Source: Thiohalobacter sp. IOR34
GTDB taxonomy: Bacteria; Pseudomonadota; Gammaproteobacteria; Thiohalobacterales; Thiohalobacteraceae
Direction of reading: 5' to 3'
NCBI RefSeq assembly: GCF_030406045.1
Contig: NZ_CP128988.1
Location: 1,089,438 to 1,153,437 of the forward strand
Length of the DNA stretch: 64,000 nucleotides
Shown: piece by piece, positions 10,205 through 54,821 of the stretch
Layout: every line of letters begins with the position of its first letter
Position numbering within the stretch: the first letter of the stretch is position 1
Position numbers and translations under genes: made by a program
The notes under the pieces: model-generated
Databases searched by the model: none
Told to the model about the DNA's origin: nothing
What the model saw: the letters and a program-made list of their open reading frames with translations, nothing else

Positions 10205-11545
10205 ATGAGCAGGAAGTATTTTGGAACGGACGGTATCCGCGGGCGGGTCGGTGAGGCACCGGTGACGGCGGATTTCATGCTCAAGCTGGGCTGGGCCATC
10301 GGCCGGGTGCTGGGCAACGGTAGCTGCGACAAGGTGCTGATCGGCAAGGACACGCGGATCTCGGGCTACATGTTCGAGTCCTCGCTGGAAGCCGGACTGT
10401 CCGCGGCCGGGATGGACATCCGGCTGCTCGGGCCGATGCCGACGCCGGCCATCGCCTATCTGACCCGGACCCTGCACTGCTGCGCCGGTATCGTCATCAG
10501 CGCCTCGCACAACCCGTATTACGACAACGGCGTGAAGTTCTTCTCCGCCCAGGGGACCAAGTTGCCGGACGAGGTCGAGGCCGAGATCGAGGCGGTGCTG
10601 GACAGCCCCATGCACACCGTGGACTCGGCGCGGCTCGGCAAGGCGGAACGGGTGGTGGATGCCGGGGGGCGCTATATCGAATTCTGCAAGAGCACCGTGC
10701 CGCTGGGCCTCAGCCTGCGCGGCCTCAAGATCGTTGTCGACTGCGCCAACGGCGCCACCTACCAGGTGGCGCCGGCGGTGCTGGACGAGCTGGGTGCCGA
10801 GGTCATCCCGTTCGGCGTGGAACCGGACGGGTTGAACATCAACGAGGGTTGTGGCTCCACCCAGCCGGCTGCGCTGCAGGCCGCGGTGCTGGAGCTGGGC
10901 GCAGACCTCGGCATCGCCTTCGACGGCGACGGCGACCGGGTGGTGATGGTCGATCATCGCGGCGAGCTGGTCGATGGCGACGAACTGTTGTACATCATCG
11001 CTCGTTCCCGTCAGACCGCGGGCCAGCTTCGCGGTGGCGTGGTCGGCACCCTGATGACCAACCTGGGGCTGGAGCATGCCCTGCGCGAGCTCGGCATCAC
11101 TCTCTACCGGGCCCGGGTCGGTGACCGCCACGTGCTGGAGATGCTGCGTGCCGAAGGCTGCGTCATCGGCGGCGAGTCCTCCGGACACATCATCTGCCTG
11201 GACCGGACCAGCACCGGGGACGGCATCGTCTCGGCGCTGCAGGTTCTGCATGAGATCGTCGCCACCGGCCGCAGCCTGGCCGAGCTGCGGGCCGGGGTGA
11301 GCAAGTATCCGCAACACATGATCAACGTGCCAATCGCCCGGCGCGCCGCCCTCGACGATTCGGAACAGGTGGCCGCTGCGGTGCGCGAGGCCGAGACGCG
11401 GCTGGCCGGCCATGGCCGGGTGCTGCTGCGGCCCTCGGGTACCGAACCGGTGATCCGGGTCATGGTCGAGGCCGACGACGAAGCGCTGGTGATGCGGGAG
11501 GCGTCGGCGTTGGCCGAGGTGGTGGCCGAGGTCTTCGGCGCCTGA
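10205..11545 (+). CDS. glmM: phosphoglucosamine mutase
   Basis: Interconverts glucosamine-6-phosphate and glucosamine-1-phosphate on the way to UDP-GlcNAc. 446 aa. Begins [16 protein letters not shown]. The phosphoserine loop is [13 protein letters not shown], the metal loop [12 protein letters not shown], the sugar-binding motif GGESSGHI, and the phosphate-binding C-terminal motif [12 protein letters not shown]. Start ATG 10205 follows CAGGAGGAG with suitable spacing. folP-glmM adjacency is conserved in gammaproteobacteria. Confidence 0.97.
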
Positions 11546-11584
11546 TGGGGGTGGTCGCGGCTATCGAAACCGCGGCGACGTCTG

Positions 11585-11607
11585 TTTTTCGCGGGTTTCG
11601 CGGCCAT
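11585..11607. repeat. remnant of the nonamer repeat family
   Basis: TTTTCGCGGGTTTCGCGGCC is a diverged arm of the repeat seen at 907-932 and in the accessory region. It lies between glmM and its terminator. Confidence 0.4.
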
Positions 11608-11642
11608 ACCCCAGTTCCCCGGCAAAATTGATTTTTTTCGGT

Positions 11643-11669
11643 CGGGCGGCTAAGCTTGCCGCCCGTTTT
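11643..11669 (+). terminator. intrinsic terminator of glmM
   Basis: GGGCGGC (11644-11650), a seven-base loop TAAGCTT, then GCCGCCC (11658-11664) and GTTTTG. TTGATT at 11627-11632 and TAAGCT at 11651-11656 are also 18 bp apart, so the same DNA could hold a promoter for tpiA. The two readings cannot be separated by eye. Confidence 0.55.
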
Positions 11670-11696
11670 GATTGCGATTTCCCGGGAGACTGACGC

Positions 11697-12455
11697 ATGC
11701 GACAACCTCTGGTGGCCGGTAACTGGAAGATGAATGGTTCCCTCGACAGCATTCGCACGCTGGTCGACGGCATCAAGGCAGGCCTCGGCGAGGTGAAGAG
11801 CGCGGCGGTGTGCGTCTGTCCGCCCTATGTCTATATCCCGCAGGTGGTCGAGATGCTGGACGGTACTGTCGTCGCCGTCGGTGGTCAGGACGTCAGCGAC
11901 CAGGAGGCCGGCGCCTTCACCGGCGAGGTCTCCGGCACCATGCTCAAGGACGTCGGCTGCCGGTACGTCATCGTCGGCCACTCCGAGCGGCGCAGCATCT
12001 ACGGCGAGAGCGACGAATTCACGGCGCGCAAGTTCGCCGCCGCCCGCCGTTTCGGCCTGACGCCCATCCTCTGTGTCGGTGAGCTGCTGGAGGAACGCGA
12101 GAAGGGGATCACCGATGAGGTGGTCGCCCGTCAGCTGGACGCGGTGATCGAACTGGAGGGCATCGCTGCCCTGGCCGATGCGGTGATCGCCTACGAGCCG
12201 GTATGGGCCATCGGTACCGGCAAGACCGCCAGCCCGGAGCAGGCCCAGGAGGTCCATGCCTTCATCCGTCAGAAGCTGGCCGGGCTCGATGCCGGTGTCG
12301 CCGAGAAGGTGCAGATCCTCTATGGCGGCAGCGTCAAGGCGGCCAACGCGGCCGAGCTGTTCGGTATGGCGGACATCGACGGTGGCCTGATCGGCGGCGC
12401 CTCGCTGAGTGCCGACGAATTCCTGGCCATCTGCCGTGCCCCGGACGCCGTTTGA
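11697..12455 (+). CDS. tpiA: triosephosphate isomerase
   Basis: Glycolytic/Calvin-cycle enzyme that interconverts dihydroxyacetone phosphate and glyceraldehyde-3-phosphate. 252 aa. The catalytic Lys lies in GNWKMNGS, the His in IVGHSERR, and the Glu in the [14 protein letters not shown] loop; the phosphate-binding [11 protein letters not shown] motif is near the C-terminus. The start ATG is preceded by CCGGGAGAC. secG follows after 17 bp, the usual gammaproteobacterial pairing. Confidence 0.98.
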
Positions 12456-12472
12456 GGTTAAAATAACATCCC

Positions 12473-12868
12473 ATGTATTCGATTCTGCTGGTCTTTCAGG
12501 TTCTGCTCGCCATCGGCGTGATCGTCCTGGTGCTGCTGCAGCACGGCAAGGGGGCGGATGCCGGTGCGGCCTTCGGCAGCGGCGCCTCGGCGACGGTGTT
12601 CGGTGCCCAGGGCTCCGGCAACTTCCTGAGCCGCAGCACCGCCATCCTCGCCGCCCTGTTCTTCGCCAACAGTCTGCTGCTGTCCAGCGAATGGGTGCTG
12701 GGCGACCGCCGGGCGCCGGCCAGTGTGGCTGAACAGCTGGCGCCGGCCGTGAACCAGGTGCCGGCAGAGACCCCGGCCGCCAAGAAGCAAGAGGCGACCG
12801 ATCTGCCGCCGGCCGATCTGCCACCGGCGGACGGGGCGGCTGGCGCCGGCAGCGACCTGCCGAACTAG
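12473..12868 (+). CDS. secG: preprotein translocase subunit SecG
   Basis: Inner-membrane component of SecYEG. 131 aa. Two membrane helices (about residues 3-22 and 53-72) are separated by the conserved loop [19 protein letters not shown]. The C-terminal tail is long, Pro/Ala-rich and low-complexity. The stop codon TAG falls on the outer edge of a palindromic element that begins at 12869, so the insertion may have set the present C-terminus. Confidence 0.95.
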
Positions 12869-13010
12869 CAGGCCGTTGAAAAAGTCTCTGGCGAGTGCGA
12901 GACAAGGCAAAAAATGGCGAAAAAGCGCAGTTTACATGGCCGTAAATGAGCATTTTGAGCCATTTTTTTAACGCCGTATCGTGCCGTCAGAGGGTTTTTC
13001 AACAGCCTGC
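12869..13010. repeat. 142-bp palindromic MITE-like element
   Basis: Terminal inverted repeats CAGGCCGTTGAAAAA (from 12869) and TTTTTCAACAGCCTG (ending near 13009). Interior pairs include CTCTGGCG with the CGTCAGAG region, ATGGC with GCCAT, and a central TTTAC/GTAAA around ATGGCC, so the whole unit folds into one imperfect hairpin. It lies between secG and tRNA-Leu and could act as a bidirectional terminator. No coding content. Confidence 0.75.
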
Positions 13011-13043
13011 TGGCAGCATTTGGGCCTCATTCACACATATCTT

Positions 13044-13128
13044 GCCGAAGTGGTGGAATTGGTAGACACGCTATCTTGAGGGGGTAGTGGCGAAAGCCGT
13101 GCCGGTTCGAGTCCGGCCTTCGGCACCA
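13044..13128 (+). tRNA. tRNA-Leu (GAG)
   Basis: 85 nt. Acceptor stem GCCGAAG/CTTCGGC, A73 and encoded CCA. The anticodon arm is CTATC-TTGAGGG-GGTAG, giving anticodon GAG. A class II long variable arm is present (TGGCGAAAGCCG), and the T arm is CCGG-TTCGAGT-CCGG. The position after secG matches E. coli (secG-leuU) and Pseudomonas. Confidence 0.97.
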
Positions 13129-42484: not shown

Positions 42485-43159
42485 TCAGTTTTCTTCCGCC
42501 GATGTCTCCACCGGCAGACCGGCCAGGCGCCATTCTGGCAGACCGTCCTCCAGCCGTCGTGCCTTGAGGCCTTTCTCGCGTAGCCTGGCCACGGCATCGA
42601 AGGCCAGTACGCAGTGCGGACCGCGGCAGTAGGCGACGATCTCCTGCGAGGGTTCCAGCCGTTCCAGGTGGGATTCCAGTTCGGCAAGCGGGATGTTGAT
42701 CGCTCCCGGTACGTGGCCGGCGGCGTATTCCTCCGGCGGCCGTACGTCGATCACCGTCACCAGCCCCTGGCGGGCACGCTCCAGCAATTCCTCACGGGCC
42801 ACGGGTTCCAGCTCGTCCTTGACGCTCAGGTAGCTCTCGACCAGCCGGTTGACCTCGGCAACGTGACGTTCCGCGACCCCTCGCAAGGCGTCGAGCAGGG
42901 CGATGACGTCCTCTCCACTCAGCCGGTAATAGACCTTGAGGCCCTGTTTGCGGGAACTGACCAGCCCGGCCTGGCGCAGCTGCTGCAGGTGTTGCGAGGT
43001 ATTGGCCACCGTCAGGCCCGAGACCCGCGCCAGCTCGTCCACGCTGCGCTCACCCTGGGCCAGGAATTCCAGCAGCTCCAGCCGGTTGGCATTGCTCAGC
43101 GCCTTGCCGACCCGGGCAAACTGGGCGAAGAGGTCGTGTTTGAAGTTTCCGCTTGACAT
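42485..43159 (-). CDS. ArsR-family regulator fused to a rhodanese domain
   Basis: 224 aa from ATG 43159 (MSSGNFKHDLF); a TTG ten codons upstream is less likely. Residues 10-95 are a winged helix (VSGLTVANTSQHLQQLRQAG for the recognition helix) without the CVC metal site of classical ArsR. Residues 120-215 are a rhodanese domain with VIDVRPPEEYAAGHVPGAIN and active Cys178 in AYCRGPHC. The fusion suggests a sensor of sulfane sulfur, persulfide or related oxidants; this is inference. It is divergent from a membrane hydroxylase gene with a palindrome between them. Confidence 0.9.
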   Translation of the reverse strand: MSSGNFKHDLFAQFARVGKALSNANRLELLEFLAQGERSVDELARVSGLTVANTSQHLQQLRQAGLVSSRKQGLKVYYRLSGEDVIALLDALRGVAERHVAEVNRLVESYLSVKDELEPVAREELLERARQGLVTVIDVRPPEEYAAGHVPGAINIPLAELESHLERLEPSQEIVAYCRGPHCVLAFDAVARLREKGLKARRLEDGLPEWRLAGLPVETSAEEN

Positions 43160-43183
43160 GGCGCCGATTTCCGTTAATCTACT

Positions 43184-43203
43184 ATTCAACAGATCAATTG
43201 AAT
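43184..43203. promoter_or_regulatory. candidate ArsR-family operator
   Basis: ATTCAACAGATCAATTGAAT: perfect arms ATTCAA and TTGAAT with an 8-bp centre, in the divergent spacer 25 bp before the regulator's start. Spacing and A+T-rich arms suit ArsR-family dimers, so it probably mediates autoregulation and control of the divergent gene. Confidence 0.6.
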
Positions 43204-43276: not shown

Positions 43277-44134
43277 ATGAATATCAATGAGTTCGTCATG
43301 AACAACGAGGTGGCCATCCGGCTTGGCTTCTTCTTTGGGGTGTTCGCAGTGATGGCGCTCTGGGAGCTGATCGCCCCACGCCGGGCGCTTAGCCTGTCCA
43401 AGGCAGTGCGCTGGGCCAACAACCTGGGCCTCGTGTTCCTCAACAGTTTCATTCTGCGCCTGCTGTTTCCGGCGGCTGCGGTGGGCATGGCCGCCTTCGC
43501 GCAAGAGCAGGGCTGGGGACTGCTCAACTACCATGAGGTGCCCCAGGGACTCGCCATCCTGGCCTCCATCGTGGCCATGGATTTCATCATCTACCTGCAG
43601 CACGTGCTGGTGCATGCGGTGCCGGTGCTGTGGCGGCTGCACCGGGTGCATCATGCCGATCTCGACTACGACGTGACGACCGGCGCGCGCTTCCATCCCA
43701 TCGAGATCATCCTCTCCATGCTGATCAAGTTCGCCACCATCGTGGTACTGGGTCCGCCGGTGGTGGCAGTGGTGATCTTCGAGGTGGTGCTGAATGCCAT
43801 GGCCATGTTCAACCACGGCAACGTGCGCCTGCCGGCTGCTGTGGACCGTCTGCTGCGGCTGCTGGTGGTGACCCCCGACATGCACCGCGTGCATCACTCC
43901 GTGGAGGACGACGAGGCGAACAGCAACTTCGGTTTCAACCTTTCCTGGTGGGACCGGCTGTTCGGCACCTACCGCGACCAGCCGCGTGCCGGCCACGAGG
44001 GTATGACCATCGGCATCCACAAGCACCGTGACCCGAAGCGGGTGACCTGGCTGCCCGGCATCCTGGCGCTGCCTTTCGTCGGCCGCATCACCGGCTACAC
44101 CATCAACCGCCGTTCCTGGAGTGATGAGAAATGA
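43277..44134 (+). CDS. sterol desaturase / fatty acid hydroxylase superfamily membrane protein
   Basis: Di-iron membrane hydroxylase family, 285 aa. About five helices and the histidine clusters HVLVH, HRVHH, a single H in MFNHGN and HRVHHSVEDDE. The substrate is unknown; bacterial members act on lipids and related hydrophobic compounds. It is divergent from the ArsR-rhodanese gene and probably controlled by it. A nonamer repeat and another repeat pair follow the stop. Confidence 0.9.
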   Translation: MNINEFVMNNEVAIRLGFFFGVFAVMALWELIAPRRALSLSKAVRWANNLGLVFLNSFILRLLFPAAAVGMAAFAQEQGWGLLNYHEVPQGLAILASIVAMDFIIYLQHVLVHAVPVLWRLHRVHHADLDYDVTTGARFHPIEIILSMLIKFATIVVLGPPVVAVVIFEVVLNAMAMFNHGNVRLPAAVDRLLRLLVVTPDMHRVHHSVEDDEANSNFGFNLSWWDRLFGTYRDQPRAGHEGMTIGIHKHRDPKRVTWLPGILALPFVGRITGYTINRRSWSDEK

Positions 44135-44330: not shown

Positions 44331-45290
44331 ATGAAACGACTGACGCGCATCTTTCTTTTCTTGTCGCTGGCGGCGGGGATCGCGGTGGCGGTGATGTACC
44401 GCGACCGTTTCGACGCGCAGGCGCTGGAGGCCTGGGTGCAGGGCGCAGGTGCGGCGGGGCCGCTGCTGTTCATGGCGGTCTACGCCATCGGCACCGTGCT
44501 GTTCCTGCCGGGTTCGGTACTGACGCTCGCCGGCGGCGCCCTGTTCGGGCCGGTGCTCGGCACTTTCTACAATCTGACCGGTGCGACCGTCGGCGCGGCG
44601 CTTGCCTTCCTGGTGGCCCGCTATCTCGGGGCAGACTGGGTGGCGCGCAAGACCGGCGGGCGACTGAAGCAGCTCATCCAGGGCGTGGAGAACGAGGGCT
44701 GGCGTTTCGTCGCCTTCGTTCGCCTGGTTCCGCTGTTTCCCTTCAATCTGCTCAACTACGCCCTGGGGCTCACCCGCATCCCCTTCTGGCATTACCTCCT
44801 GGCCACCTGGGTCTGCATGCTGCCCGGCGCCATCGCCTACACCTACCTCGGCTATGCGGGCCGCGAGGCGGTGGCGGGCGGCGAGGGCCTGATCCAGAAG
44901 ATCCTGCTGGCACTGGCCTTGCTCGCGGCGGTGGCCTTTCTGCCGCGGCTGATCGCCCGCCTGCGCCAGGGACCGATGCTCAGTATCCCGGAATTGAAGG
45001 AGAAGCTGGATGGCGGTGAGGATCTGCTGGTGCTGGACGTGCGCACCGCGGAGGATTTCATCGGCGAGCAGGGCCACATCGCGCAGGCCCGCAACATCCC
45101 CCTCGAAGAACTGCCCGGACGGATCGACGAGATCCTGGACTGGGAGGAGAAGCCGGTCGTGCTGGTCTGCCGCACCGACCGCCGTTCGGCCAAGGCGGCC
45201 CGGATCCTGGCCAGGAACGGTTTTGCCGATGTGCACGTCGCCCGCGGCGGCATGACCGACTGGAACGCCAACGGCTATCCCGCCGAGTAG
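44331..45290 (+). CDS. VTT/TVP38 (DedA-like) membrane protein fused to rhodanese
   Basis: 319 aa. Residues 1-210 are a TVP38/TMEM64-type membrane domain (LPGSVLTLAGGALFGPVLGT, FVRLVPLFPFNLLNYALGLT). Residues 215-319 are a cytoplasmic rhodanese domain with active Cys280 (VLVCRTDRRSAK). VTT proteins occur near several arsenosugar and sulfur-metabolism clusters, and both are present nearby. The substrate and direction of transport are unknown. The next gene, 24 bp downstream, is a TauE-type transporter. Confidence 0.92.
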   Translation: MKRLTRIFLFLSLAAGIAVAVMYRDRFDAQALEAWVQGAGAAGPLLFMAVYAIGTVLFLPGSVLTLAGGALFGPVLGTFYNLTGATVGAALAFLVARYLGADWVARKTGGRLKQLIQGVENEGWRFVAFVRLVPLFPFNLLNYALGLTRIPFWHYLLATWVCMLPGAIAYTYLGYAGREAVAGGEGLIQKILLALALLAAVAFLPRLIARLRQGPMLSIPELKEKLDGGEDLLVLDVRTAEDFIGEQGHIAQARNIPLEELPGRIDEILDWEEKPVVLVCRTDRRSAKAARILARNGFADVHVARGGMTDWNANGYPAE

Positions 45291-45314: not shown

Positions 45315-46091
45315 ATGTCGATCACAGTCATCATCGCAGGCCTCGTCACCGGCATGTTGCTGGGCGTGTTCGGGAGCGGGGGTTCCATCATTACCCTGCC
45401 CGCGCTGATCTATCTGCTCGATACCGAACCCAAGGCAGCCATCGCCATGAGTCTCGGTATCGTCGCCATTACCGCTACCCTGGCCGCTGTTCAACATTGG
45501 CGGCGCGGCAACGTCAATCTCCGGGTGACCGCTGTCTTCGGCTTGTTCGGCGTGGTCGGCACCTACGCCGGTGCCCGGCTGGGAGTGATTACCCCGGTGG
45601 TCGTGCAGCTCGTCGTCTTTGCCCTGGTGATGTATGCCGCGGCCTGGAGGATGCTCAGGCCGCAACCGCAGCCCAGGTCGGTTGGTGCCATGGCAGTAGC
45701 CGACTGCCCGGACGGTCACTGCGAGGAGTTGGAGTACGCGCATATCGCCCTGCACGGCATCGGCGTCGGCATCCTCACCGGTGTGGTCGGGGTGGGTGGC
45801 GGCTTCCTCATCGTTCCCGCCCTGGTGCTGCTTTCCGGGCTGTCCATGAAACGCGCAGTCGGTACCTCGCTGGCCATCGTCGCCGTCAAGTCCTTTGCCG
45901 GTTTCGCCGGCTACGCCGGCGCAGTCGCCATCGACTATGACACGATGGCCGCATTCACCCTGATCGCCATCGCCGGCAGTGTGGCCGGCGGCCATCTGGC
46001 GCATCGCCTGCCGGCCGACCGGCTCAAGCGCGGCTTCGGTGGCTTCCTGGTGCTGGTTGCCAGCTACATCCTGATCAAGCAGCTACTGTGA
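45315..46091 (+). CDS. TauE/SafE-family sulfite/organosulfur exporter-like protein
   Basis: 258 aa, eight predicted helices in two homologous halves: GMLLGVFGSGGSIITLPALI early and GILTGVVGVGGGFLIVPALV in the second half, both family signatures. Members export sulfite, sulfoacetate or related anions. It lies between a rhodanese fusion and a DsrE protein, so a role in sulfur oxyanion handling is likely. A ribosome binding site (GGAGAGG) precedes the ATG. Confidence 0.92.
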   Translation: MSITVIIAGLVTGMLLGVFGSGGSIITLPALIYLLDTEPKAAIAMSLGIVAITATLAAVQHWRRGNVNLRVTAVFGLFGVVGTYAGARLGVITPVVVQLVVFALVMYAAAWRMLRPQPQPRSVGAMAVADCPDGHCEELEYAHIALHGIGVGILTGVVGVGGGFLIVPALVLLSGLSMKRAVGTSLAIVAVKSFAGFAGYAGAVAIDYDTMAAFTLIAIAGSVAGGHLAHRLPADRLKRGFGGFLVLVASYILIKQLL

Positions 46092-46101
46092 GGTGGGAGA
46101 C

Positions 46102-46455
46102 ATGAGTACAGTCACTATCGTCATTCAAAATGCACCCTACCAATCGGACAACAAGGCCTGGCACGCGCTGCGCTTCGCCGGCGCTGCGCTGAGCGAAGAT
46201 CTGGCGGTGCGTGTGCACCTGTTGGACGATGGCGTGGAAGTCGGCCGCCGAGATCAACGGGTGCCGGAAGGCGCCGTCGACCTGGAACGGCTGCTCGGCG
46301 AACTGATCGAGTGCGGGCTCGAAGTGCGCGCCTGCGGCATGGCGCTGGACGGTTGTGGTATCGACGAGGCGACGATGATCCCTGGCATCGAACGTGGCTC
46401 GATGAAGGCCCTGGCGGCCTGGGTGAAAGACAGCGATCACGTGATGGTGTTCTGA
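46102..46455 (+). CDS. DsrE/F-like sulfur relay family protein
   Basis: 117 aa. ATG 46102 follows GGTGGGAG; a GTG at 46093 is less likely. The family pattern is visible in TIVIQNAPYQSDNKAWHALR, VRVHLLDDGVEV and a cysteine loop EVRACGMALDGCGID (Cys78 and Cys85; also Cys71). DsrE-type proteins carry sulfur on cysteines. It ends a small VTT-rhodanese/TauE/DsrE operon. Confidence 0.88.
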   Translation: MSTVTIVIQNAPYQSDNKAWHALRFAGAALSEDLAVRVHLLDDGVEVGRRDQRVPEGAVDLERLLGELIECGLEVRACGMALDGCGIDEATMIPGIERGSMKALAAWVKDSDHVMVF

Positions 46456-46713: not shown

Positions 46714-49047
46714 ATGGCGAGGCAGACTGAGCAGGTGATCCAGCACTGGCCGCGGGCCTTCGAGGCGACGCGGCAGGATCTGATGCCGGCGCGTTATGGT
46801 CTGCCGGTGCAGCTGCTGAGCATGGCGGCCTTCACCCTGGCCTTCTTCGGCTGGCTCAACGAGTCCTGGTTGTTCTGGTTCGACAACCCCATCTGGCTGA
46901 ACCGCTACACCGAGTATGCCCTCATCTTCGCTTTCGGTCTGTGGCGCATCGCTGCCGAGCGCAATACGTATACCCGCAGGCGGCTGATTATCCTGGTGAC
47001 AATGGTCACGGCGTTCTGGTGGCTGATCCCCTGGCTGGCACCCGTCTATGAACCCTATGTCGGCTATCTCTGGGCGCAGCCGGTGTTCCCCTCGCTGCAT
47101 GTGCCGGGCACGGTGACCTTCTTCCTGGTTCTGGCGGCGGTCTTCCTGTTCGGCCGGCGCATCATCTGCGGCTTCAACTGCCCCTGTGTCGGCATCCGCG
47201 AGACGGTGGGCTTTGCCTTCCGCGACCGGACCCTGCGCTCGAAATGGACCTGGCGCCTGCGCCATTCCAAGTGGTTTTTCTTTCTCTACTACGTCGGCGT
47301 GATGGTGGTCACCCAGTTTCCGCCCAGCGCCTGGACGGTGAGTTTCGTCGGCGGTTTCTATCTGCTGGTCGGTCTGACCTACTTCGGCACCTTCTTCGTC
47401 GCGCCCCTGGTGGGTAACCGCTTCTACTGCCGCTATCTCTGCCCCTACGGCGCCACCTTCGGCCTGCTCAATCACGCCGGTTTCTATCGGCTGCACATGG
47501 ACCAGGACAGGTGCATCGACTGCCGGCGCTGTGAGCAGGTGTGCGACATGGGCATCCCGGTCTGGGAGCAGGGCCGTGAGGCTGGAAGGGTCACGGCCCT
47601 GGAGGACTGCATGGGTTGCGCCCGCTGCGTGGTCTCCTGCCCGACCGATGCGCTGGAGATTCGCGACGTGCGCAACCTGTTCCGGCCGGCACTGAAACAG
47701 AACGCCAGTCATCTGCTGAAACGTGAACCGCGGCCCCTGCCGGCACGCCGCGAGCCGCCCGTCCGTCCCGCGTCGCAGCGGCTGCAGGATTGGGGGGAGA
47801 CGGTGCAGGTACCGTCGCTGGCCGGGATCCAGGCCCAGGCAGCACGCTGTCTCGATTGCGGTGTGCCTGGTTGTGTCAATGCCTGTCCGCTGCACAACCG
47901 GATACCCGAATGGCTGGAGGCGGTGGCCCGGGGCGAGATCGAGCACGCGGCCGAGATCGCGCATGCGACCAGCAGCCTGCCCGAGGTTTGCGGCACCCTC
48001 TGTCCCCAGCACCGTCTGTGCGAGGGTGCCTGCACCCTCGCCGATACGGCGGCTGGGCCGGTAACCATCGGTGCCGTGGAACGCTTTCTGGTGGACGAGG
48101 CCGCCTCCCGGGGCTGGCGGCCGTCCGGGGCGCAGAGGCGGCTGGACAGGAAGGCGGCGATGATCGGCGCCGGTCCCGCGGGTCTGGCCTGCGCCGATGT
48201 CCTGAGTCGTGCCGGCTGGGCGGTCACCGTCTTCGACCGCGCGACGCAGATCGGCGGTCTGTTGGCCAGCGGCGTGCCGCCCTTCAAGCTGGACAAGGCG
48301 CTGCTGGAGCGCCGCCGCCGCTGGCTGGAAGGGCAGGGCGTGCGGTTCCGTCCGGGTACGGAGATCAGTGAGGCCGATGTCTGGCGGCTGCTGACGGAAC
48401 AGGATGCACTGTTCCTCGGCATCGGTGCCCAGACGGGGCGCCCCCTGGTGCTGCCTGGCCGCGAACTCGCCGGGGTCGAGGAGGCGCTCGACTACCTGCG
48501 GCGGGCCAATGCCGGCGCCCATGACGAGATGCGGGGCCGGCGGGTGCTGGTCATCGGTGGGGGCGATACCGCCATGGACTGCGCCCGTAGCGCCCTGCGC
48601 CAGGGCGCGGCGGCAGTGACGGTGGTCTACCGCCGTGACGAGGCGGCGATGCGCGCCTCCCCCAAGGAGCGCCGGGCGGCGGCCGAGGAAGGCGTGCGCT
48701 TCCTGTTCCAGCGTGTACCCGAGGCGGTGCTGGGAGAGGCTGCGGTCACCGGCATGCGCTTCTTGCGCGCCGAAGGCAGCGTCGAGAAGCTCGACTGCGA
48801 TCGCGTGATCCTCGCCGTGGGCCAGGTGAACGCGCCGCCCGACTGGCTGGAGGCGCTGGGTGTCGCCCTGGACGAGCGGGGACGCATCCGGGTGGATACC
48901 GAGGGCCGCACGGACCACCCCAAGATCTACGCTGGCGGTGACGACACCCTCGGCCCTGACCTGGTGGTCACCGCCGTCGCCGCCGGCCGCCGTGCCGCCC
49001 AGGCCATCCTCCACGACCACCGCCGGCTTCGCCTGAGGGCATCATGA
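46714..49047 (+). CDS. membrane Fe-S protein (NapH/NosR-type) fused to a GltD-like FAD/NAD(P) oxidoreductase
   Basis: 777 aa. Residues 30-255 hold about six helices with two Cys-rich membrane-edge motifs, CGFNCPC (152-158) and CRYLCP (239-244), as in the NapH/NosR/CcoG group. Residues 267-315 contain two [4Fe-4S] motifs (CIDCRRCEQVC, CMGCARCVVSCP). Residues 370-777 match the small subunit of glutamate synthase: N-terminal Fe-S domain (CLDCGVPGCVNACP), FAD motif IGAGPAGLACA (484-494), NAD(P)H motif VLVIGGGDTAMD (611-622) and a second FAD motif near YAGGDDT. The fusion predicts electron transfer between NAD(P)H and the membrane or periplasm. Direction and partners are unknown; multiheme cytochrome genes follow. 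Ribosome binding site GAGAGGGG. Confidence 0.9.
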   Translation: MARQTEQVIQHWPRAFEATRQDLMPARYGLPVQLLSMAAFTLAFFGWLNESWLFWFDNPIWLNRYTEYALIFAFGLWRIAAERNTYTRRRLIILVTMVTAFWWLIPWLAPVYEPYVGYLWAQPVFPSLHVPGTVTFFLVLAAVFLFGRRIICGFNCPCVGIRETVGFAFRDRTLRSKWTWRLRHSKWFFFLYYVGVMVVTQFPPSAWTVSFVGGFYLLVGLTYFGTFFVAPLVGNRFYCRYLCPYGATFGLLNHAGFYRLHMDQDRCIDCRRCEQVCDMGIPVWEQGREAGRVTALEDCMGCARCVVSCPTDALEIRDVRNLFRPALKQNASHLLKREPRPLPARREPPVRPASQRLQDWGETVQVPSLAGIQAQAARCLDCGVPGCVNACPLHNRIPEWLEAVARGEIEHAAEIAHATSSLPEVCGTLCPQHRLCEGACTLADTAAGPVTIGAVERFLVDEAASRGWRPSGAQRRLDRKAAMIGAGPAGLACADVLSRAGWAVTVFDRATQIGGLLASGVPPFKLDKALLERRRRWLEGQGVRFRPGTEISEADVWRLLTEQDALFLGIGAQTGRPLVLPGRELAGVEEALDYLRRANAGAHDEMRGRRVLVIGGGDTAMDCARSALRQGAAAVTVVYRRDEAAMRASPKERRAAAEEGVRFLFQRVPEAVLGEAAVTGMRFLRAEGSVEKLDCDRVILAVGQVNAPPDWLEALGVALDERGRIRVDTEGRTDHPKIYAGGDDTLGPDLVVTAVAAGRRAAQAILHDHRRLRLRAS

Positions 49048-49117
49048 GTAGCCACGAAACCCACGAAAACGACTTGAGACTTACGGCGCCTCTCGGAGCG
49101 CGTGCGTCGAATATTAA

Positions 49118-49362
49118 CCCGCATATTGCACGAAGGATTCGAGTTTCAGGGCGAATCTGGCCAAGCAGTTTGTTCGATCGCCCGTAGAAGCATAGCCGTA
49201 CCTATGGTTCAAGGGGGATCGGGCAAAATGCGACGCCAGATTTGGTCTGAACTCGAATAGGCACAAACTGTAACAGGGCGCAATTGCTCGTAGAGGGGAT
49301 TACTGCCTTGATAAATAACGTAAAAATTACGCTTTCAAGGCCGCCTTCGTGCAATATGCGGG
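49118..49362. mobile_element. 245-bp TIR element (YTAR-flanked MITE), copy 3
   Basis: Ends CCCGCATATTGCACGAAGG and CCTTCGTGCAATATGCGGG, flanked by TTAA at 49114-49117 and 49363-49366. The same length and a closely similar interior to 32000-32244. Confidence 0.87.
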
Positions 49363-49366
49363 TTAA

Positions 49367-49401
49367 CCCGGCGGCTGAACACGGCATATTCAGTTGCCGG
49401 G
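49367..49401. repeat. 35-bp palindrome bounded by TTAA
   Basis: CCCGGC and GCCGGG ends with inner CTGAA/TTCAG pairing, flanked by TTAA (49363-49366 and 49402-49405). It shares one TTAA with the 245-bp element. It may be a minimal derivative of the same family. Confidence 0.6.
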
Positions 49402-49442
49402 TTAATAAAAATCATTTCGTGGATTTGGTGGGTTTCGTGGCC

Positions 49443-49631
49443 ATGTATCTGCTGTCTCTAAGCACGGCCTGGGGACATCATACGCGGGAACACTTGATGC
49501 TGGAGGAAGATGCCGAAGGGGTGATCGCCGCCACGCGTGAGGGTGGCAACGGCTGGCTGCTGTGGGCCGGCCTGGGGCTGCTGCTGTTCCTTGCTGTGGT
49601 GCGCTGGTGGGCGCGGAGGCGGGGGCGGTGA
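49443..49631 (+). CDS. small membrane protein before the octaheme cytochrome
   Basis: 62 aa from ATG 49443: MYLLSLSTAWGHHTREHLML, an acidic linker, and a C-terminal helix GWLLWAGLGLLLFLAVVRWW with a basic RRRGR end. The stop overlaps the GTG of the octaheme gene (GTGA), so they are coupled. The start codon directly follows the nonamer repeat. Upstream in-frame repeat codons (from a GTG/TTG) read VDLVGFVAM and would lengthen the N-terminal hydrophobic stretch into a better signal sequence. No homologue recognised; a cytochrome anchor or assembly role is inferred from coupling. Confidence 0.65.
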   Translation: MYLLSLSTAWGHHTREHLMLEEDAEGVIAATREGGNGWLLWAGLGLLLFLAVVRWWARRRGR

Positions 49632-50968
49632 AAAGGGTGCCGCGCTATGTCTGGATCCCCGTGATCCTGGCGCTGATCGCCGTGCCTGCCGGTTTCTGGT
49701 ACGTCGACTGGAGTCGCGGCGGCGCGGGTGCCGGGCTCTATTCCAGGGCCTGGATGCCGGAGGCGGTGTTTGCCTACTGGGACCCTGCCGACTTCTATGC
49801 GGCGCCGGAGTCCCTGGGCGGCAGCTTCCAGGGTGAACAGTGCGTCCAGTGCCATCAGGCGGTCACCCCCGGCATCGTCAACGACTGGCGGGCCAGCCGT
49901 CACTCGCAGCCAAAGGGGCGCGCCCCCGTCTACTGCAGCGACTGCCACGGCAGTGACCACCAGTCCCTGCACCTGCCGACCCCCGAGGTTTGCGGCGGTT
50001 GCCATGCCACCCAGCATGTCCAGTTCGAGGACGAGAAGCGCCTCGGTTTTCCCAGCCACGCCCTGGCCCTGGAGCGGGCGCTGGATGCACCGCACTTTGT
50101 CGACAAGCCCAAGGCCGAGGTGAGTGCCTGCCTGCAGTGCCATTCGGTAGCGGCCAAGTGCGATTCCTGCCATACCCGGCACCGCTTCAACGCCGCCGAG
50201 GCGCGTCGGCCCGAGGCCTGCATCACCTGCCACAGCGGTCCGCCACATCCCGACGACGAGACCTTTTACGCCTCGGCCCATGGTCGTCTCTATCTTGCCG
50301 AGGGCGACGAGTGGGACTGGTCGAAGCCGCTCGTCCGGGGTAACTACAAGGCGCCGACCTGTGCCTACTGCCACATGCAGGCGGGTCGCCATCAGGTGGC
50401 CGACAAGCCGATCCACAAGTTCGGTATCCGCCAGGTCAATCCGCTGACCTCGGCCAATGCGGTCAAACGTCGACAGTGGGTCGAGCTGTGCAGCGACTGC
50501 CATGAGGCAGGGCAGGCGAGTGCCTGGCTCGCCGCGCTGGATGCCGAGCGCAAGCAGGCCTGGCAGATGCTGCGCGGGGCGGAGGCCGTGCTCAAGGACC
50601 TGCGCGCAGAGGGACTGCTCTATCCCAACGCCGGCGAGCGTCCGCCCTATCCCAACAGCACCCTGGACCGTCTGTTGCCCAAGGCACGCATCGGTTTCTA
50701 CGAGGGCCAGGCCTCGGCCTTCTACAATGTCTCGCCCATCGAGCGCGATTATTTCGAGATGTGGTACTTCGACAACCTAGCCGCCTACAAGGGCGCGGCA
50801 CACGGCGACGCGGCGATGGTGAAACGCGGTCACGCCGCCCTGGAAAAGGATCTCCAAGCCATCCGCGCCGAGGCGCAACGGCTGCGCGAACTCGGCCCGG
50901 TCCGCCCCGACCCCCGGCCCCTGTGGTTCTCCGGCGAATACACCGAACACAACCTGGAGAACAATTGA
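49628..50968 (+). CDS. octaheme cytochrome c, hydroxylamine oxidoreductase (HAO) family
   Basis: 446 aa with GTG start overlapping the preceding stop. N-terminal membrane anchor (residues 7-24), then eight CxxCH motifs beginning at residues 72, 103, 122, 168, 178, 198, 245 and 288. The distinctive CAYCHMQAGRH and the helical C-terminal region with ERDYFEMWYFDNLAAYKGAA match HAO-type multiheme proteins. Family members oxidise hydroxylamine or hydrazine, or reduce nitrite/hydroxylamine; which applies here cannot be read, and whether a Tyr cross-links the active heme needs alignment. No amo or hzs genes are in the window. Matured by the Ccm system encoded nearby. Confidence 0.88.
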   Translation: MKRVPRYVWIPVILALIAVPAGFWYVDWSRGGAGAGLYSRAWMPEAVFAYWDPADFYAAPESLGGSFQGEQCVQCHQAVTPGIVNDWRASRHSQPKGRAPVYCSDCHGSDHQSLHLPTPEVCGGCHATQHVQFEDEKRLGFPSHALALERALDAPHFVDKPKAEVSACLQCHSVAAKCDSCHTRHRFNAAEARRPEACITCHSGPPHPDDETFYASAHGRLYLAEGDEWDWSKPLVRGNYKAPTCAYCHMQAGRHQVADKPIHKFGIRQVNPLTSANAVKRRQWVELCSDCHEAGQASAWLAALDAERKQAWQMLRGAEAVLKDLRAEGLLYPNAGERPPYPNSTLDRLLPKARIGFYEGQASAFYNVSPIERDYFEMWYFDNLAAYKGAAHGDAAMVKRGHAALEKDLQAIRAEAQRLRELGPVRPDPRPLWFSGEYTEHNLENN

Positions 50969-50974
50969 GATGGA

Positions 50975-51080
50975 TAGCCACGGAATCTACGAAGCCCGAG
51001 AAATGGATGGCCACGAAACCCACGAAATCCACGAAAAGGGTTTTGGTGTTTTCGCTGCCGCGCAGAGTGCGTGCGCCGCA
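50975..51080. repeat. nonamer arrays and GC core, interrupted by the MITE
   Basis: AGCCACGGAATCTACGAAG (50975-50993) and GGCCACGAAACCCACGAAAT (51009-51036) are followed by a core CGCAGAGTGCGTGCGCCGC. The TA-type MITE is inserted just after, so the right arm of this element is missing or unrecognisable. Confidence 0.7.
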
Positions 51081-51086
51081 ATACTA

Positions 51087-51348
51087 CTAAGACAAACGAT
51101 AACAAAGCCTCATTCAGCGGGTATCCGGGCGGTCAGCCGCAAGGCGCGCCAGAGCCGGCATGGCCATTCCATGTCAAGCTGGCGCAACACCGCAGATGGC
51201 CGCCCGGCCGCCCGCCCGCAGGGAGCGACCCCGGCGTCCCGGTTCGGCGTTGCGTTGCTTGGCAAGGGCATGCCATTCCCCGCGCAACACGCCTTGATCC
51301 GGAACGCCGAGGTCGCTCTGAATGAGGCTTTGTTATCGTTTGTCTTAG
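51087..51348. mobile_element. 262-bp MITE flanked by TA, copy 2
   Basis: The same 31-bp terminal inverted repeats as 13197-13459 (beginning CTAAGACAAACGATAACAAA), with TA at 51085-51086 and 51349-51350. The interior is related to copy 1 but diverged. It ends 11 bp before the ATG of the pentaheme cytochrome gene. Confidence 0.88.
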
Positions 51349-51359
51349 TAATTAATTTC

Positions 51360-52136
51360 ATGGCTATTATCTTGTGGGCTTCGGCCGTGGCGGCAGAGGG
51401 GAGCGATTGTGTGGGTTGCCATGAGGAGCGTGACGCGGCGCTGGTGGCGGACTGGCAAGCGAGCGGGCATGGAGGGCTTGCGGCGGGGTGTGCCGCATGC
51501 CATGGCGAGGACCATGAAGCTGCGCTGGAACGCTCGCGCCGGGATAGCGCCTGTATCGACTGTCACGGCGGTGGCCGGGCACCGGTGGTGCACAGCTATA
51601 CGAGTTCCAAGCATGGTGTCATCATGCGCCTGGAGGCCGGAGGCATGGACTGGAATCGACCGCTGAAGGACGCCAACTACCGTGTCCCGGGATGTGCCTA
51701 CTGTCACATGCATGCCGGCAGGCATGGTGCCCCCGTCGCCTCGCAGGGTGCAGAGGCGGAGGATGGTCAGGCACGGACGCGCTATCCTGTGGTCTGCCAG
51801 GAATGCCATGCGCCGCGCTATGTGACGCGCCTGTTCGACAACGGCCGGCGCATGCTCGCCGTCGGGCGCATGAAGCTGCGTGAGGCCGAGGCCCTGGTGG
51901 CGTCGGTGGCCAGGATGCTTGGCGAGGAGGCGCTGGCGCCGGCCAGGGAGCGCCTGGTGAAGATGCGGCATCATCTGCACAATGTCCGGCTTGGTATAGG
52001 TCACCAGTCGCCGGACTATCAATGGTGGCACGGCCAGCCGGCGCTGGATGGCGACCTGCTGCGCATCAAGGGCCTCATCGGGCGGCTGCAGCGGCAGTCA
52101 TCCATCGACAACACAGAGCGTCCGGAGGACGAATGA
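51360..52136 (+). CDS. pentaheme cytochrome c related to the octaheme protein
   Basis: 258 aa from ATG 51360. Five CxxCH motifs start at residues 17, 44, 65, 112 and 146. The segment WNRPLKDANYRVPGCAYCHM parallels WSKPLVRGNYKAPTCAYCHM in the octaheme protein, so the two are homologous, with three motifs fewer here. The signal sequence from this ATG is short and lacks a basic N-region (MAIILWASAVAA). The frame stays open upstream through the MITE end, where LLSFVLVINF lengthens the hydrophobic stretch (TTG 51330). The hydrolase gene follows directly. Confidence 0.82.
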   Translation: MAIILWASAVAAEGSDCVGCHEERDAALVADWQASGHGGLAAGCAACHGEDHEAALERSRRDSACIDCHGGGRAPVVHSYTSSKHGVIMRLEAGGMDWNRPLKDANYRVPGCAYCHMHAGRHGAPVASQGAEAEDGQARTRYPVVCQECHAPRYVTRLFDNGRRMLAVGRMKLREAEALVASVARMLGEEALAPARERLVKMRHHLHNVRLGIGHQSPDYQWWHGQPALDGDLLRIKGLIGRLQRQSSIDNTERPEDE

Positions 52137-53852: not shown

Positions 53853-54821
53853 ATGCATGCGATGCGGCCTTTGTTGGAAGAGACCGATTTTCCCGCCATA
53901 CGGCGCGACGCCCTGGAGACCCTGCAGGTGAACCTGGGCTACCGCTGCAACCAGTCCTGTTTGCACTGCCATGTCAATGCCGGTCCGCGGCGGCAGGAGA
54001 TGATGTCGGCGGAGACCCTCGACGCCGTGCTGGGCTTTCTCGAACGTTCAGGGGTCCGCCGGCTGGACATCACCGGCGGTGCGCCGGAACTCAATCCCGG
54101 TTTCCGCCGCCTGGTGAGCGGGGCACGCGAGCAGGGCGTGCACGTCATCGACCGCTGCAATCTCACCATCCTGGAGGAGAGGGGGCAGGAGGACCTGGCC
54201 GACTTTCTGGCCGGACAGGGGGTCGAGGTGGTTGCCTCGCTGCCCTGCTATCTGCCGGAGAACGTCGATGGCCAGCGCGGCGAGGGGGTCCATGCGGCGA
54301 GCATCAGTGCCCTGCAGCGGCTCAATGCCCTGGGCTACGGTCGGCCGGGTACTGGCCTGGAAGTCAACCTGATGTACAACCCGGCTGGCGCCTATCTGCC
54401 ACCGGCGCAGGAGCAACTGGAAGCTGATTACCGGCGCGAATTGGAGCAACGCCACGGCGTGGTCTTCAATCGGCTCTACACCCTTACCAACATGCCCATC
54501 ATGCGCTTCGGCAGCACATTGGTCTCACGGGGGCAGTTCGACGACTATATGCAGTTGCTCCGGGAGGCCTTTCAGCCGCGCAACCTGGAAACGGTCATGT
54601 GCCGCAGCTTGATCAGCGTCGACTGGCAGGGCTTCGTCTACGACTGCGACTTCAACCAGTTGCTCGATATGCCCCTGCGGCTGGGTGGCCGTGGCCGGAT
54701 ACGGCTGGGCGATCTCGATGCAGACAGCCTGCGCGACAACCCCATCGTGGTGGCCGACCACTGCTACGGCTGTACGGCCGGCCAGGGCTCGAGCTGCGGC
54801 GGTGCCTTGGTGAATGAATAG
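53853..54821 (+). CDS. arsS: arsenosugar biosynthesis radical SAM protein ArsS-like
   Basis: Radical SAM enzyme, 322 aa. The cluster motif is CNQSCLHCH (Cys32, 36, 39), followed by LDITGGAPELNP; a Cys-rich C-terminal region ends CYGCTAGQGSSCGG. ArsS is thought to add the deoxyadenosyl group to methylated arsenic in arsenosugar synthesis. The neighbours support this: ArsM directly after, then two glycosyltransferases of the types found in these clusters. ATG 53853 has GAGG 12 bases upstream; ATG 53862 is an alternative. Confidence 0.9.
   Translation: MHAMRPLLEETDFPAIRRDALETLQVNLGYRCNQSCLHCHVNAGPRRQEMMSAETLDAVLGFLERSGVRRLDITGGAPELNPGFRRLVSGAREQGVHVIDRCNLTILEERGQEDLADFLAGQGVEVVASLPCYLPENVDGQRGEGVHAASISALQRLNALGYGRPGTGLEVNLMYNPAGAYLPPAQEQLEADYRRELEQRHGVVFNRLYTLTNMPIMRFGSTLVSRGQFDDYMQLLREAFQPRNLETVMCRSLISVDWQGFVYDCDFNQLLDMPLRLGGRGRIRLGDLDADSLRDNPIVVADHCYGCTAGQGSSCGGALVNE

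Follow-up and report, generated by a model that had tools for sequence, protein, structure and literature searches.

The locus examined here raises the question of what an iron-sulfur flavoprotein anchored in the membrane does together with two multiheme cytochromes, and on which substrate the assembly acts. It lies in a window of 64,000 nucleotides (positions 1089438-1153437) of the single-contig, 2.96-Mb genome of Thiohalobacter sp. IOR34. An earlier interpretation made from the letters alone, referred to here as the sequence-only reading, described four genes at 46714-52136. They encode a 777-residue fusion of a NapH-type iron-sulfur scaffold, two ferredoxin clusters and a GltD-like domain, a 62-residue membrane protein, an octaheme cytochrome of the hydroxylamine oxidoreductase (HAO) family and a homologous pentaheme cytochrome. 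All four genes are present and real, but the boundary was drawn too narrowly. The conserved cluster begins at 42485, upstream of the fusion, and the four genes were rejected as a unit of their own because this upstream part is conserved as well. The module is real and apparently undescribed, and assembled from known parts. No description of the cluster was found in the full-text literature searched, in line with the earlier statement that no named system with this composition is known. As a tentative answer, held at somewhat below an even chance, the locus may encode a periplasmic reductase under persulfide control, typical of sulfur bacteria with Dsr, with an oxidised sulfur compound as a more likely substrate than a nitrogen oxide.

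The genes of the module travel together. A class sample of 369 genomes was searched with the fusion and separately with an octaheme profile (E<=1e-60). The full fusion was found in 15 genomes besides the query, and the octaheme in 15 of the 369, all of which also have the fusion. In the 16th fusion genome, G265, the octaheme is broken. The homologues lie in sulfur-oxidising Proteobacteria, as judged from the 80 best loci obtained when each species was represented by one genome. Among the 68 further loci with at least 1.5 kb of downstream sequence, 60 contain the octaheme, with the pentaheme behind it in nearly every case, and a phylum-wide sample adds about 27 octaheme genomes outside the class. 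Gamma- and Betaproteobacteria alike have the fusion first, then the small or heme protein, the octaheme and the pentaheme, and dozens of genomes share this gene arrangement, with 40-70% identity. Chance co-location is ruled out by the 15/15 and 60/68 co-occurrence, and the link between fusion and cytochromes, which the sequence-only reading had singled out for checking, is thereby borne out. In one single-contig genome (L042, G034), the octaheme is split over several frames at 11501-13105 beside an intact fusion, due either to a pseudogene or to sequencing errors.

The composition of the fusion was confirmed by searches of Pfam, NCBIfam and the PDB. Pfam assigns Fer4_5, Fer4_x, Fer4_20 and Pyr_redox_2, and the CGFNCPC and CRYLCP motifs, both CxxCxxC ferredoxin sets and the eight Fer4_20 cysteines are invariant in the 14 homologues checked (14/14). 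The N-terminal part shares with NapH, NosR and MauN the membrane helices (as judged by hydropathy), the CxxxCP pair and two C-terminal Fer4 clusters. It matches the NapH/MauN model TIGR02163, but stays under the curated cut-off (70 vs 213 bits) and differs in the C-terminus, which is joined to GltD. The periplasmic flavin mononucleotide (FMN)-binding domain of NosR is not among the Pfam matches of the fusion. For residues 345-774, the closest solved structure is the glutamate synthase small chain 6s6s (E 4e-120). The two [4Fe-4S] clusters of Fer4_20 and the flavin adenine dinucleotide (FAD) and NAD(P)H domains are shared with flavoproteins of the GltD/AegA/NfnL/DsrL type, whereas covalent attachment to a membrane iron-sulfur scaffold is particular to the fusion, and the glutamate synthase small subunit model TIGR01318 is missed at 433 vs 483 bits.

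A wire linking NAD(P)H with hemes in the periplasm, as first proposed, remains the natural reading of these domains, and in Gamma- and Betaproteobacteria the fusion indicates a cytoplasmic donor feeding the NapH-like clusters. The NAD(P)H part is nevertheless inessential, because Alphaproteobacteria have the octaheme/pentaheme module behind a NapH-like protein without GltD. This unfused protein of about 400 residues has an extra membrane segment at the end where GltD would be. The alphaproteobacterial loci contain an ArsR-rhodanese regulator, an FA_hydroxylase protein, the unfused NapH-like protein, the octaheme, a VTT-rhodanese protein and the pentaheme; the related NapH-like loci with organism names, L130-L132, are alphaproteobacterial. 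The core of the module is thus the NapH-like protein, octaheme and pentaheme under ArsR-rhodanese control, and the GltD fusion with its NAD(P)H domain is, on this comparison of gene content, an elaboration of the gamma- and betaproteobacterial lineages.

The best start of the octaheme is the GTG codon at 49628, which overlaps the stop codon of the 62-residue gene, and its closest PDB relatives are HOX, hydrazine dehydrogenase (HDH), kustc0458 and HAO. With HAO, HOX and HDH (1fgj, 4n4j, 6hif) it shares eight CXXCH motifs in register, seven histidines of the distal type, the equivalent of His268 and the C-terminal helical region. It differs from them by the missing P460 tyrosine (Tyr467 in NeHAO, Tyr462 in HDH), a proline in place of Asp267, its own N-terminal membrane anchor and another operon. 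The active-site alignment comprises 76 members of the family, drawn from Gamma-, Beta- and Alphaproteobacteria. In it, Val-Asp-His at NeHAO 266-268 corresponds to Pro205-Pro206-His207 of the octaheme; the proline at the Asp267 position (Pro206) and the His268 equivalent (His207) are both found in 76/76 sequences. The cross-link position is occupied by Val, Ile, Ser, Ala, Thr, Phe or Gln and by Tyr in 0/76. HDH residue 462, which we take to be the cross-linking tyrosine, also aligns to a column without tyrosine in the octaheme. The HAO-like controls, L198 (a locus with HAO partner cytochromes) and L184, keep Asp, His and Tyr. The alignment with HAO, HDH and reductive HAO that the sequence-only reading had suggested for locating the P460 tyrosine therefore returns its absence from all 76 sequences. 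Asp267, His268 and Tyr467 are reported to be functional, with Tyr467 marking oxidative catalysis (PMC3814345).

Judged by its sequence, the octaheme is of HAO ancestry, yet it fails membership in HAO itself because the P460 tyrosine and the Asp267 equivalent are missing. Its score against the hydrazine dehydrogenase equivalog NF052343 is 190 bits, compared with a cut-off of 900. The nearest precedent is kustc0458 (6h5l, HAOr), which likewise has no cross-linking tyrosine and aligns strongly through the block of hemes 5-7; it retains the Asp-His pair (PDH), which the octaheme does not, and has a different partner (kustc0457). The seven histidines outside the CXXCH motifs that it shares with HAO, besides the His268 equivalent, are sufficient for ligating seven hemes, while His156 and His402 are specific to the family. 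Octaheme tetrathionate reductase (OTR) and octaheme nitrite reductase (ONR) are also periplasmic octahemes occurring in sulfur oxidisers, but none of their chains is among the PDB matches of the octaheme at E<=1e-3, which consist of HAO-type chains and 4qo5 only.

Three known octahemes are distinct from this one: the HAO of ammonia oxidation, rejected as an identity since the active-site residues are absent and the partner cytochromes of the real HAO locus L198 were not found here; the orange octaheme of Beggiatoa, whose reported neighbourhood differs (Nap genes); and the OTR of lucinid symbionts, which belongs to another family. The genome of L198 (G323) contains three HAO copies at identical scores, with c-type cytochromes beside one of them. 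A Thiodiazotropha locus encodes, about 7.5 kb upstream of its fusion, a 685-residue protein with nine CXXCH motifs and 23% identity to the octaheme (L115:441-2498).

The pentaheme is homologous to the octaheme, as the sequence-only reading had stated, but is no independent enzyme. Profile-profile comparison (99.9% probability) reveals a paralogue of the octaheme with one clean internal deletion between octaheme hemes 2 and 6, and thus without hemes 3, 4 and 5, the catalytic heme included. In betaproteobacterial loci the protein is reduced further, to three hemes. The loss of the catalytic heme fits a putative relay subunit. An identity as NrfA or NrfB was rejected, since the protein aligns with the octaheme. 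The 388-residue open reading frame (50970-52136) has an artefactual N-terminus derived from an inserted repeat, and the real start lies near 51333-51360. AlphaFold2 models were too poor for use, with a mean predicted local distance difference test (pLDDT) score of 49 for the octaheme and 68 for the pentaheme.

The upstream cluster brings in sulfur. Its genes were counted over the 53 loci with at least 4.5 kb of upstream sequence, and the ArsR-rhodanese gene that opens it also stands beside nearly all complete alphaproteobacterial loci. The regulator's only cysteine pair is found in the CRGPHC loop of the rhodanese, and its helix-turn-helix (HTH) part is free of cysteine. A 22-bp palindrome, TATTCAA-N8-TTGAATA, is located in the gap between regulator and FA-hydroxylase gene in most gamma-, beta- and alphaproteobacterial loci. 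Its core, ATTCAAN8TTGAAT, occurs a single time in the 2.96-Mb genome, compared with 0 occurrences of a control pattern; it was found at the module locus in 7 of 12 genomes searched, again with 0 for the reversed control. These findings speak well for a local repressor dedicated to the cluster. Conservation of TTGACA at 43153 was set aside as a sign of a promoter, because the motif overlaps the start codon of the regulator.

That ArsR proteins can repress sulfur oxidation in response to sulfane sulfur is established (PMC12423496). Because of these proteins and the fused rhodanese, the signal is predicted to be sulfur, and the regulator is a probable persulfide-responsive local repressor. It resembles SqrR, SoxR and sHdrR in belonging to the ArsR family, in diverging from a sulfur-related operon and in having a palindromic operator. 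SqrR/BigR-type sensors have their reactive cysteine pair in the HTH part, however, while the sole pair of the present regulator is that of the rhodanese. VTT-rhodanese, DsrE and TauE/SafE proteins follow in the predicted operon, the last considered accessory because it is present in only 9/53 loci. With the regulator, these genes make sulfur the strongest context among the options that the sequence-only reading had left side by side (reductive or oxidative, nitrogen or sulfur).

The host genomes point in the same direction. Gene content was compared by Fisher tests between 16 module and 40 other genomes of the class, and between 25 and 25 genomes of the phylum sample. The gene dsrA, over cut-off or split, is present in 15/16 vs 16/40 class genomes (p 2e-4) and in 24/25 vs 4/25 genomes of the phylum sample (p 7e-9), adding up to 39/41 module hosts. 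A linkage to Sox was rejected, as soxB is not enriched in module genomes (1/25 vs 7/25, phylum sample).

In the preferred reading of a sulfur-controlled reductase, the ArsR-rhodanese protein would repress the operon and be released upon persulfidation of the rhodanese cysteine pair. The electron path is proposed from the domain architecture: electrons of NAD(P)H would enter the FAD and the GltD-type [4Fe-4S] clusters of the fusion, and pass to its two ferredoxin clusters and the CxxxCP sites within the membrane-located NapH-like domain. The membrane-anchored small protein, whose place is taken in relatives by a mono- or diheme cytochrome, would hand them on to the pentaheme, which would relay them to the octaheme. 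In the latter, itself anchored to the membrane, heme 4 would be the open catalytic site. The unfused NapH-like protein of Alphaproteobacteria would need electrons from quinol or ferredoxin. We infer that the octaheme works reductively, because the tyrosine cross-link of oxidative catalysis is missing, and that its substrate is a sulfur compound, because of the regulator, the neighbouring genes, the link to dsrA and the lost Asp267. Candidate substrates are sulfite, sulfane sulfur or polysulfide, and tetrathionate.

Several observations weigh against this reading. To our knowledge, all characterised HAO-family octahemes act on nitrogen compounds, and the rule that absence of the tyrosine means reduction rests on few enzymes. 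Genes for cd1/heme-d1 proteins are enriched in module genomes (13/16 vs 8/40 in the class, 15/25 vs 1/25 in the phylum sample), and the dsrA, cd1 and soxB comparisons are associations only, with control genomes that are phylogenetically unmatched. Furthermore, 8/68 loci (L066, L083, L086, L127-L130, L132) have the NapH-like or fusion gene without the octaheme, and the wire can therefore have another periplasmic partner. Of these, L083 and L086 contain a related diheme cytochrome, and one stands directly after the fusion in L068, whose contig is too short to be counted.

The alternative that survives best, possible though rather unlikely, is an NAD(P)H-driven nitrogen-oxide reductase, in which the octaheme would reduce periplasmic nitrite, nitric oxide or hydroxylamine in denitrifiers that oxidise sulfur, serving either as a detoxification or to form ammonium. 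Control by sulfur would then be explained by sulfur serving as electron donor, and the sHdrR and SoxR repressors are indeed known to influence nitrate respiration (PMC12423496). The fold is that of the HAO family; the HAO-like orange octaheme of Beggiatoaceae, from a sulfur oxidiser, reduces nitrite (PMC6449678), and kustc0458, without the tyrosine, was isolated as a nitrite reductase (cited in PMC12485887). The enrichment of cd1/heme-d1 genes is also in its favour, although among dsrA-positive class genomes the difference (12/15 vs 8/16) is not significant, and cd1-type genes are absent from 3/16 class and 10/25 other hosts, compared with only 2/41 for dsrA. The replacement of the catalytic Asp267 by proline in 76/76 sequences and a conserved cluster without any nitrogen-cycle gene likewise count against this alternative.

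The opposite direction is improbable. The octaheme would oxidise a periplasmic substrate, and with the electrons gained the NapH-GltD fusion would reduce NAD(P)+ to supply CO2 fixation. The hosts, by name largely sulfur-oxidising lineages, need NAD(P)H, and GltD-type flavoproteins can run towards it. DsrL, which is related to GltD and has been proposed to produce NAD(P)H when sulfur is oxidised, appears to be separately encoded beside dsrAB in the query genome, however. The absence of the tyrosine (0/76) has weakened the oxidative option, and electron transfer from c-type hemes to NAD(P)+ is uphill unless coupled; no coupling device was seen. Least probable is that there is no dedicated substrate and that octaheme and pentaheme are a capacitor or wire discharging cytoplasmic reductant to other periplasmic acceptors: the pentaheme is a heme-excised paralogue, at some loci the fusion is accompanied just by a diheme cytochrome or lacks the octaheme, and His156 and His402 could cap heme 4, but the seven histidines shared with HAO suffice for bis-histidine ligation of seven hemes, and the invariant His268 equivalent (76/76) suggests that an active pocket is retained.

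A more far-reaching form of the preferred sulfur reading is rather doubtful. It would make the module a respiratory branch of Dsr-type bacteria that is regulated by persulfide and has not been described before. NAD(P)H (Gamma- and Betaproteobacteria) or another low-potential donor (Alphaproteobacteria) would drive reduction of an inorganic sulfur compound in the periplasm by an HAO-derived octaheme. If so, a sulfur compound would for the first time be the substrate of an enzyme with the HAO fold, which would extend the fold beyond the nitrogen chemistry to which it is so far confined, and the module might explain the supply of electrons for the reductive mobilisation of periplasmic sulfur. If nitrite or nitric oxide is reduced instead, such octahemes in genomes of sulfur oxidisers should not be taken as a sign of hydroxylamine oxidation. 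Either way, annotation of the octaheme as hydroxylamine or hydrazine dehydrogenase misleads surveys of the nitrogen cycle. This branch of the HAO family has an altered active site and is tied to sulfur regulation instead of nitrogen genes, and the lineages concerned (Thiobacillus, Sulfuritalea, Thiodiazotropha and tubeworm symbionts) are globally important sulfur oxidisers.

Table 1. Features of the conserved cluster, with positions in the window; fractions give presence among the loci with sufficient upstream sequence.
Feature	Position	Strand	Evidence and remarks
ArsR-family HTH + rhodanese	42485..43189	-	Pfam HTH_5 + Rhodanese; 42/53 loci; likely true start near 43159
Operator-like palindrome ATTCAA-N8-TTGAAT	43184..43203		Between regulator and predicted operon
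FA_hydroxylase (PF04116) family membrane protein	43277..44134	+	Pfam; first gene of predicted operon; 40/53 loci
VTT-domain membrane protein with C-terminal rhodanese	44331..45290	+	Pfam; 37/53 loci; most alphaproteobacterial loci too
TauE/SafE-family transporter	45315..46091	+	Pfam E 1e-51; 9/53 loci
DsrE-family sulfurtransferase-like protein	46093..46455	+	Pfam DsrE E 5e-18; 30/53 loci
Fusion, 777 residues	46714..49047	+	NapH-like membrane Fe-S domain 1-340; GltD-like Fer4_20/FAD/NAD(P)H domain 345-770
Inserted MITE-like element, 253 bp	49114..49366		23-bp perfect terminal inverted repeats; parts fusion from 62-residue gene
62-residue protein	49443..49631	+	HHTxEHxML motif; one C-terminal transmembrane helix; fills mono-/diheme cytochrome c slot of relatives
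Octaheme cytochrome c	49628..50968	+	8 CXXCH; HAO fold family by sequence; N-terminal membrane anchor
Inserted MITE-like element, 266 bp	51085..51350		33-bp perfect terminal inverted repeats; abuts 5' end of pentaheme gene
Pentaheme cytochrome c	51333..52136	+	5 CXXCH; octaheme paralogue without hemes 3-5; start approximate

The slot between fusion and octaheme is filled differently by lineage, with a heme-less tail-anchored protein of 60-70 residues, a monoheme or a diheme cytochrome; the query lineage belongs to those with the heme-less protein. Diheme and monoheme tail-anchored cytochromes are found there in L059, L065, L067 and other loci, giving the appearance of a stepwise loss of hemes. 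In L044 and L045, the heme-less protein is fused to the N-terminus of the octaheme. In most relatives, the stop codon of the fusion overlaps the start of the next gene, that of the small protein. In the query, both gaps of the module (49048-49442 and 50969-51350) contain multicopy inverted-repeat elements resembling miniature inverted-repeat transposable elements (MITEs). The first is present in about 43 copies in the genome at 84-96% identity and has no evident coding capacity. The second, with about 24 near-full-length copies, accounts for part of what looks like the N-terminus in the pentaheme reading frame.

A short interspersed repeat, CCACGAAACCCACGAAA, occurs at 16 sites (at most 2 mismatches, 0 expected), among them 49052, 51011, 53696, 53724, 53801, 54825 and 54912. 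The sites often flank gaps and inserted elements, and the repeat yields HETHEIHE-like peptides in spurious open reading frames. Finally, the module is adjoined by an ArsS-type radical S-adenosylmethionine protein at 53853-54821 (TIGR04167, 452 bits, cut-off 300) together with methyltransferases, an arrangement found at 11 of the 60 octaheme loci.

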